The notes under the pieces are model-generated. The model did no database searches and was not told where the DNA came from. It saw nothing but the letters and a program-made list of their open reading frames with translations. From Haloplanus vescus (lineage in GTDB: Archaea > Halobacteriota > Halobacteria > Halobacteriales > Haloferacaceae), in assembly GCF_900107665.1 (NCBI RefSeq), contig NZ_FNQT01000002.1, forward strand, positions 2,286 through 66,285: a stretch of 64,000 nucleotides of DNA. Direction: 5' to 3'. Positions 45,800-55,833 of the stretch are shown piece by piece. Position 1 is the stretch's first letter; every line of letters begins with the position of its first letter. The translations under genes were made by a program, and so were the position numbers.

Positions 45800-46040
45800 A
45801 TGATGTGATTGCTCGCCAACGTTCATAAATCCGTGTCTGCTCCTCGGTGGACATCTGACCGGGGCCTATGTCTACTGTGGCCATAATCAGGCACCTCAGA
45901 GACGCCGTCTACCGTCAAAAGTGGCGGCCTCGGCACTCATAGGGCTCGTCACTGTCGGGAGCCACCCCGGCTCGGAGTGGTGCGCTCGTCATCGGCCACC
46001 CGACATTCCGGCCGCCGGCCTCAAACACGTTTCTGTCCGC
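45800..46040. other. Gene-free stretch of about 240 bp
   Basis: Apart from the antitoxin promoter at its left end I see no gene, RNA or repeat here. It separates the accessory patch from the hypusine operon. Confidence 0.4.
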
Positions 46041-54448: not shown

Positions 54449-55102
54449 TCAGTCGCTCGCGACGCGGGCCGCGCGTCGCAGTTCGTCGAACGATTGGACG
54501 CGATAGTCACCGAGCACGCAGCGACCGCGTCGCTGCGGGTCGTGGCGTTCGACGTGGATGCCGTCGAGGCCGGCGTTCCACGCCGCGCCGATGTCGTTCG
54601 GGCCGTCCCCCGCGAGGACGCCCGTGGCGTCGTCGCCGACGTTCAGGTCGGACATGGCCAGATACACCGGCGCGGGATCGGGCTTCCACCCGATGTCGTG
54701 GGTGCAGGAGACGACCGTGTCGAACCAGTCGCGGATGTCGAGTTGGTCGAGCACCGGGTCGACCAGATACTCCTGACAGTGCGTGACGAGGCCGACCGGT
54801 CGGTCGAGGTCGGCGACGAAGTCGGCGTCGTCGTGGAGGAAGGTTGCCTCGGCGCGTTCCGTCGGGTCTTCGGCCTCGTGGAGCGCCGCCCAGAACGCCT
54901 CGGGGTCGATGCCCCACTCGCGCAGCTGCGGCGTTCGCTCCCCCGACAGGCCGTGCCAGAGCACTTCGACCTCGCGCTCGGAGAAGGAGCGCCCCAACTG
55001 GTCTCCCACGCGGTCGAACACCGCATCGGCGTAGTCGGGGTCGACGTCCACCAGCGTCCCGTCGAGGTCGAACAGCCAGAAGTCGTAGGCGTGTGCGACC
55101 AT
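54449..55102 (-). CDS. HAD-superfamily hydrolase
   Basis: 217 residues. FDLDGTLVD (motif I nucleophile Asp at about residue 12), GLVTHCQ (motif II), KPDPAPV (motif III Lys) and AGDGPNDIGAAWNAG (motif IV) complete the HAD set, with a helical cap. Family members dephosphorylate small phosphoesters such as phosphoglycolate; substrate not evident. It lies downstream of the four-way-junction element. Confidence 0.9.
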   Translation of the reverse strand: MVAHAYDFWLFDLDGTLVDVDPDYADAVFDRVGDQLGRSFSEREVEVLWHGLSGERTPQLREWGIDPEAFWAALHEAEDPTERAEATFLHDDADFVADLDRPVGLVTHCQEYLVDPVLDQLDIRDWFDTVVSCTHDIGWKPDPAPVYLAMSDLNVGDDATGVLAGDGPNDIGAAWNAGLDGIHVERHDPQRRGRCVLGDYRVQSFDELRRAARVASD

Positions 55103-55186
55103 TCACGCTCGAATACGCGCGGCCCAAACAAGTGTGTTCCGCCGCTACTACTGATACTGTTCAGAATCGCGCGATTTCGTCGGTGA

Positions 55187-55439
55187 CACCTCGAAAGCCC
55201 CGCCGCGCTGGAGTCGGGGGGCTCGCTGCGCGCGCTCCCTGCGGTCGCGTGCTTACGTCGCCCGCCTTCCTCCAGCGCGGCGCCCCTTTCAGTCCCACCC
55301 ACAGCGGCTGGCCAATCAAGCGGCGCGGGTGGGACTGAAAGGGGCCGGCGGTTCGGCGAACCCGGATGACGCAAGCACCGCAACGGAGTGAGGAGCGCAG
55401 CGAGGCCCGGGAGCCGAACCGTCGGGGGCTTTCGAGGTG
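55187..55439. repeat. 253-bp nested palindromic element forming a four-way junction
   Basis: Four stems meet without any unpaired base. Outer stem: 55187-55201 with 55425-55439 (15 bp). Arm 1: 55202-55213 with 55270-55281 (12 bp). Arm 2: 55282-55300 with 55327-55345 (19 bp, containing TTTCAGTCCCACCC). Arm 3: 55346-55357 with 55413-55424 (12 bp, one G-T pair), extended by 55361-55365 with 55407-55411. The surrounding 55103-55473 region holds no credible gene. It may be a small mobile repeat or a structured RNA; strand and copy number cannot be judged here. Confidence 0.85.
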
Positions 55440-55473
55440 GTCTCGGTTTCAATCTGCATATCTGAGCGTTATC

Positions 55474-55833
55474 CTACGATTCGACGCGAATCGAACTCCC
55501 GAGGTGGGCGTGCAACACCTGCTGGGGGGTGTCGTCGAAGGCGTCGCTCTCCGCGATGGCGTCCCGAAGCGCGTCGAGATACGCCTCGTCGGCGCGCAAC
55601 TCGCTGAACGTCACGTCCCGAACGGGGACGCCGAGCCAGTCTTCGGCCAGCGACCGGAGATGTGCCTCGTCGCTCGCCTCGCCGCGCCAACACGCCGCCT
55701 CGAAGAAACGCCAGTCGTCGGTGTCCGGTTCGGCGGCGGGCTTTCGCACCACCGTCTCGAAGGTGTCGGGGTCGGCGGCGACGCCCGACGCGTCGAGTTC
55801 GAAGGTGACCCGGAAGACGTACGCGGCGTTCAT
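55474..55833 (-). CDS. Small haloarchaeal protein, probably LWR-salt family
   Basis: 119 acidic residues. YVFRVTFELDASGVAADPDT and then DWRFFEAACWRGEASDEAHL; the WRG(E) motif after an aromatic pair resembles the haloarchaeal LWR-salt family, though the Leu is Cys here. No function known. ATG 55833 overlaps the stop of the pterin dehydratase gene, so it is the last gene of the hemA operon. Confidence 0.6.
   Translation of the reverse strand: MNAAYVFRVTFELDASGVAADPDTFETVVRKPAAEPDTDDWRFFEAACWRGEASDEAHLRSLAEDWLGVPVRDVTFSELRADEAYLDALRDAIAESDAFDDTPQQVLHAHLGSSIRVES

Follow-up and report, generated by a model that had tools for sequence, protein, structure and literature searches.

What is a perfect DNA cloverleaf doing in an intergenic spacer of a haloarchaeal genome, and what keeps its stems paired? 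In the window (the whole 64-kb stretch of DNA analysed here), the 253-nt core at 55187-55439 forms a 15-bp outer stem that encloses three hairpins, whose bases measure 12, 19 and 12 bp; the four stems meet at a junction without an unpaired base. This four-armed arrangement, with each stem starting where the previous one stops, had been described in an earlier note and is reproduced by folding: the minimum free energy is -180.8 kcal/mol, compared with -125.6 +/- 5.1 in 200 dinucleotide shuffles (z -10.9), and 0 of the 200 shuffles is equally good. With its shown and inferred parts taken together, the reading we consider quite probable is that of a MITE-like, non-autonomous transposable element with the cloverleaf as its core.

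The anatomy of the core goes some way toward explaining its regularity. The outer stem (5' side 55187-55201, + strand, CACCTCGAAAGCCCC; 3' side 55425-55439, + strand, GGGGCTTTCGAGGTG) and arm 2 (55282-55345, GCCCCTTTCAGTCCCACCC ... GGGTGGGACTGAAAGGGGC around a 26-nt centre, the inner portion of an interrupted palindrome) are two parts of one 29-bp palindrome, CACCTCGAAAGCCCC^TTTCAGTCCCACCC ... GGGTGGGACTGAAA^GGGGCTTTCGAGGTG. Its halves are interrupted at the same position (^) by arms 1 and 3, between direct repeats of GCCCC on the left (the 3' end of the outer stem's 5' side, recurring at 55282-55286) and GGGGC on the right (the 5' end of its 3' side, recurring at 55341-55345). Both arms are hairpin modules of about 80 bp: arm 1 (55202-55281), 80 bp with a 12-bp perfect base, is of type A and reads outward on the - strand, while arm 3 (55346-55424, + strand), 79 bp with a single G-T pair at its base, is of type B. 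Two hairpins placed opposite each other in one stem produce a closed four-way junction by necessity, which accounts for the pattern that had seemed so striking.

The arms would be hairpin modules inserted into, or losable from, a palindrome; either direction of change fits, and forms without an arm exist. An exact armless form is found at one locus (L129, GAAAGCCCCTTTCAGTCCC), and near-armless forms at six loci of genome G027, with a few bases left, and at L004, with one extra C. Across copies, arms that are not enlarged are mostly 71-93 bp long with basal stems of 10-12 bp, and many arms contain further inserted hairpin pairs. These inserts comprise families of double hairpins (about 50-60 bp, with perfect stems of variable sequence and C-G-closed triloops) nested at recurrent arm sites, as in L044, L055, L120, L121, L131, L133, L134 and others.

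The core is not the whole element. In the alignment of copies, conservation continues past the ends first given, through a left terminal repeat GRTACTGTTCAGATTAG and its right counterpart lying about 34 bp outside, so that the earlier boundaries proved too narrow: the element occupies 55153-55473 (321 bp), 34 bp more on each side. Its 17-bp terminal inverted repeats are of IS6 type, at 55153-55169 on the left (+ strand, GATACTGTTCAGAATCG, consensus GGTACTGTTCAGATTAG) and at 55457-55473 on the right (- strand, GATAACGCTCAGATATG, consensus GGTAGTGTTCAGATAAG). Between these repeats and the core lie unpaired subterminal segments (55170-55186 and 55440-55456, both + strand), of which the left is not common to IS6 elements. 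The contrast that had been drawn with ordinary MITEs thus dissolves, since one pair of terminal repeats is present as in any MITE, only outside the core. Similarly, that no clear target-site duplication had been seen is explained by the boundaries, the real ends lying 34 bp further out on each side; there an 8-bp duplication is present, CTACTACT at 55145-55152 and CTACGATT at 55474-55481, degenerate in this copy with a match at 6 of 8 positions.

Comparison with relatives of the same genus shows that the element is an insertion at this site. Their orthologous spacer, which separates the HAD-hydrolase gene from the adjoining gene, lacks it; the sequence of the empty site in G010 is GCCG-TATTACTC-CACCCGAATCG (beginning CACCC after TATTACTC), with the position of the left duplication retained, whereas the filled site in the window reads GCCG-CTACTACT, then the element, then CTACGATT-C-GACGCGAATCG. 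The element is non-coding, carries no transposase ORF, and lies between the HAD-hydrolase gene (54449-55102, - strand), 50 bp upstream of the start of that gene, and an ORF at 55474-55833 (- strand) that has no Pfam match and whose stop codon falls inside the right target duplication. It may influence the expression of both.

The ends point to the enzyme likely to be involved. The consensus terminal repeats equal the ends of IS6 elements in the genus, several of which end in GGTRCTGTTCAGATTAG / GGTAGTGTTCAGATAAG, a pair of variants that the MITE-like element has as well, and IS6-family proteins (Pfam DDE_Tnp_IS240) are present in all 13 genomes searched. Other IS6-family copies in these genomes have perfect (8/8) 8-bp target duplications; among 34 related elements with clear ends, 31 have duplications matching at 6 or more of 8 positions and 18 are perfect, and even though scoring allowed end shifts of up to 2 bases, which raises chance agreement somewhat, 18 perfect duplications are far beyond chance. 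Related copies range from 320 to 493 bp, within the limit for MITEs (under about 500 bp, with no transposase gene), and the family shows what is expected of an IS6-dependent MITE: IS-like terminal repeats, 8-bp duplications, no transposase ORF in the window copy, several copies, and empty sites in relatives. An IS6-type transposase would then move the whole element in trans, as the common terminal repeats suggest. Origin from an IS6 element by internal deletion is ruled out, because the two show no homology inside the outer 18 bp or so. This genome has a single ORF for an IS6-family transposase (L103:4312-5010, - strand), whose product can be aligned with related proteins no further than residue 187 of 232; given this divergence, the active enzyme may have been lost here.

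Copies elsewhere bear out the suggestion of an interspersed mobile element, which family members, terminal repeats, target duplications and empty sites together support. No second copy occurs within the 64-kb window, as had been noted, and three further copies lie elsewhere in the genome, one of them incomplete and lacking arm 1. A search of haloarchaeal genomes found relatives in 63 of 99 related genomes. More widely, 39 of 391 Halobacteria genomes, from 19 of 86 genera, have the centre motif in both halves, with up to 16 copies, and a single genome can contain up to about 90 instances of the half motif, many of these being single units without IS6 ends. Related units are also found on plasmid records; phage records and viral contigs gave no match to the element, and a pattern scan of genome contigs with a 20-mer of the outer stem returned only three chance matches, in unrelated bacteria.

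The proposal that all related repeats carry IS6 ends was rejected, as the G027 units and many cores from another family (f4) lack them. In G027 (loci L073-L102), a related unit that lacks IS6 ends is present more than 60 times, and downstream of these units the relics GGGGCTTTCGAGG are repeated at a spacing of about 60-65 bp. In the f4 genomes, the same core is found with ends of a related IS6 type, GTGTTTAGTTA, and 12 of 48 cores have CTAG on both flanks, where about 0.02 would be expected per flank (background 0.022 per 70 bp); this flanking pattern suggests a second transposase family. CTAG, a rare tetramer in these genomes, occurs in one or both flanks of the cores L193-L200, L203 and L206-L208. 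The usual definition of a haloarchaeal MITE rests on its ends, but in this family conservation lies in the interior and it is the ends that vary.

The core is also found in either orientation. As to inversion and REARRANGEMENT, when left and right ends are told apart by their terminal and subterminal bases, 17 elements read left-A-B-right and 16 read left-B-A-right, and wherever a type could be assigned to both arms of a core, one was A and the other B. Inversion would proceed by recombination or strand switching between the inverted stems of the core. G003 contains a copy with two left ends (L125, G003:C7:1813841-1814755) and another with two right ends (L126, G003:C7:1576703-1577612), and their matching flanks at C7:1576703-1576969 (+) and C7:1813841-1814106 (-) are contiguous in G002, G006 and G010. 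The arrangement is a 237-kb inversion in G003 with its breakpoints within the two copies. Element copies can evidently serve as sites of large inversions, and core inversion, together with the breakpoints in two copies, appears compatible with resolution by a junction nuclease.

Pairing in the arms is kept while sequence changes. Arm stems vary between copies with compensating changes: 102 distinct 10-bp arm basal stems (a set limited to stems that retain 7 or more of 10 pairs; those left aside came mostly from arms whose base carries nested insertions) show 83 different 5' sides. For type A and related stems (n = 26), 97.1% of cells are paired and 10 of 12 pairs have changed on both sides, with a covariation score of 0.608 against 0.122 in shuffled and at most 0.09 in slid alignments; B stems (n = 27) are 94.8% paired and score 0.298 against 0.118 shuffled. 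Stems entered this analysis with 9 or more of 12 pairs intact, and because the copies are related, the counts do not represent independent events. Of 89 distinct cores, 81 (40/42 and 41/47) retain the complete set of four junction pairs. Pairing is thus preserved through compensating changes.

Whether this pairing matters in DNA or in RNA can be approached through mismatches, since pairing selected in RNA would tolerate G-U and not A-C. Over all stems, G-T and A-C mismatches number 62 and 56; among distinct arm stems read outward they number 20 and 10, an excess that is not significant (two-sided binomial, about 0.1) and might become so in a larger sample. In the A arms, 43 of 61 changes that affect both sides of a pair (about 70%) are transversion pairs, which have no possible G-U intermediate. 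Among 35 nested perfect hairpins of at least 8 bp, which belong to a few families and are not independent, loops of 3 nt occur in 33, in every case closed by C-G, and the rest of the window shows no such peak; a C-G-closed 3-nt hairpin loop is a type favoured in DNA. When hairpins were counted across entire G027 loci, no triloop peak emerged, probably owing to the ordinary sequence that makes up most of these loci. Given the lack of significant G-T bias, the transversion pairs and the DNA-type triloops, pairing is most likely kept as folded DNA that acts or is repaired, and not as RNA. The G-T pair in arm 3 is real, yet the hint of RNA-level selection once seen in it is not supported by the mismatch counts. 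Maintenance might operate on DNA through cruciform or single-strand folding, with hairpin-templated repair, selection or the two together at work; such selection would possibly favour a fold recognised by a protein.

Our more far-reaching proposal is offered tentatively, as something well short of probable: that the four-way junction is itself the persisting unit, a DNA module folded into a closed cruciform that has an arm of each type, A and B, is conserved throughout the class Halobacteria, hitchhikes between different transposon ends and inverts freely within them, promotes chromosomal rearrangement, and is recognised through its fold by a cellular or transposon protein. A possible, if doubtful, alternative is that mutation alone accounts for the structure, the palindromes having no function, being perfected by template switching (quasipalindrome correction) and merely being multiplied by transposition. 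Such a process would account for double changes of every type that show no clear bias toward an intermediate, for perfect stems in so many sequences (the 83 different 5' sides of 102 distinct stems) and for core inversion, which fits template switching. However, the conserved directional loop motifs and the constant A-plus-B make-up suggest recognition by something, and preservation of the closed junction across families likewise argues against mutation alone.

It is rather unlikely that the element is in origin like a REPIN, an inverted pair of hairpins recognised in single-stranded form by a Y1 (HUH) transposase like those of IS200/IS605 elements or the RAYTs, for which the IS6-type ends would be a second route acquired later. 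Two hairpins inverted around a spacer, a core motif reaching about 90 copies per genome with many single units free of IS6 ends, and cores that carry different ends are all features such a history might leave; the terminal repeats and 8-bp duplications in the copies tested are nevertheless of DDE type.

Less likely again is a structured RNA, in which the cloverleaf would be transcribed, its pairing selected in RNA, and the element would spread as its carrier. Strong covariation, very low folding energy, the slight outward G-T excess (20:10) and conserved loop motifs (AAGSAC in 153 of 172 arms, in the same outward direction) are what this would predict, but G-T and A-C mismatches are almost equal over all stems, transversion pairs make up the majority of double changes, and the nested hairpins have C-G-closed triloops. 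Moreover, the outward direction lies on opposite strands for arms A and B, so a single transcript cannot carry both arms outward. The core has no family match in Rfam, and the sole match in the window is the C/D box RNA sR-tMet (RF02163) elsewhere, at 45926-45997 (- strand). RNA-level selection, as suggested earlier, is therefore unsupported. A fixed chromosomal replication or recombination signal, the last of the earlier suggestions, could draw on the copies at recombination breakpoints in one relative and is refuted in practical terms, being extremely improbable given the empty locus in relatives, several copies per genome and insertion-type flanks.

Returning to the MITE-like element with a cloverleaf core, its many natural copies supply compensating changes, both core orientations and armless forms, and because they vary in this way it becomes directly testable whether cells or transposases act on extruded DNA cruciforms. 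Nested hairpin modules may also explain a large part of the repetitive DNA between genes in these genomes. The kinds of mobile element concerned are known (IS-dependent MITEs, nested hairpin repeats, short palindromic repeats lodged in palindromes, and double-hairpin elements); their combination and its conservation are, as far as searched, undescribed, and literature searches with pieces of the sequence returned nothing relevant.

The inverted terminal repeat of parvoviruses (AAV) has an outer stem with inner hairpins, and its inner part occurs in two orientations; the resemblance is of form only, as the element is not terminal and has no virus and no known replication origin. Double-hairpin and other repetitive hairpin-forming elements of fungal and sponge mitochondria likewise consist of modular hairpins that spread in intergenic DNA, but in other hosts and without known IS ends (PMC2800124). 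Bacterial REPINs and BIMEs, as characterised in the parts of the sources drawn on here, share the principle of two inverted palindromic repeats forming one long hairpin, whereas our arms are several times longer, the four-way junction is closed, and DDE-type ends and target duplications are present (PMC3116915, PMC2817692). Among haloarchaea, SMR-A of Haloquadratum is a small mobile repeat with a length of about 110 bp; it has prominent inverted terminal repeats and is inserted, without target duplication, in palindromes of PATEs and IS605-type elements (PMC3119063). Compared by description only, in the relevant portion of that source, it too is a short palindromic module inside another element's palindrome; the arms here differ in their length of mostly 71-93 bp, 5-bp repeat flanks (GCCCC), orientation and host element. 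Haloarchaeal MITEs, including those of Haloquadratum walsbyi, have the terminal repeats and duplication length of an IS and an interior unrelated to it apart from terminal bases (PMC3119063), and the present element resembles them in being short and non-coding with IS-type ends and duplication length. Relative to the H. walsbyi MITEs as described in that part of the same source, what sets it apart is its cloverleaf, the insertion of hairpins on two sides, the inversion of its core, and the occurrence of one and the same core with several kinds of ends.
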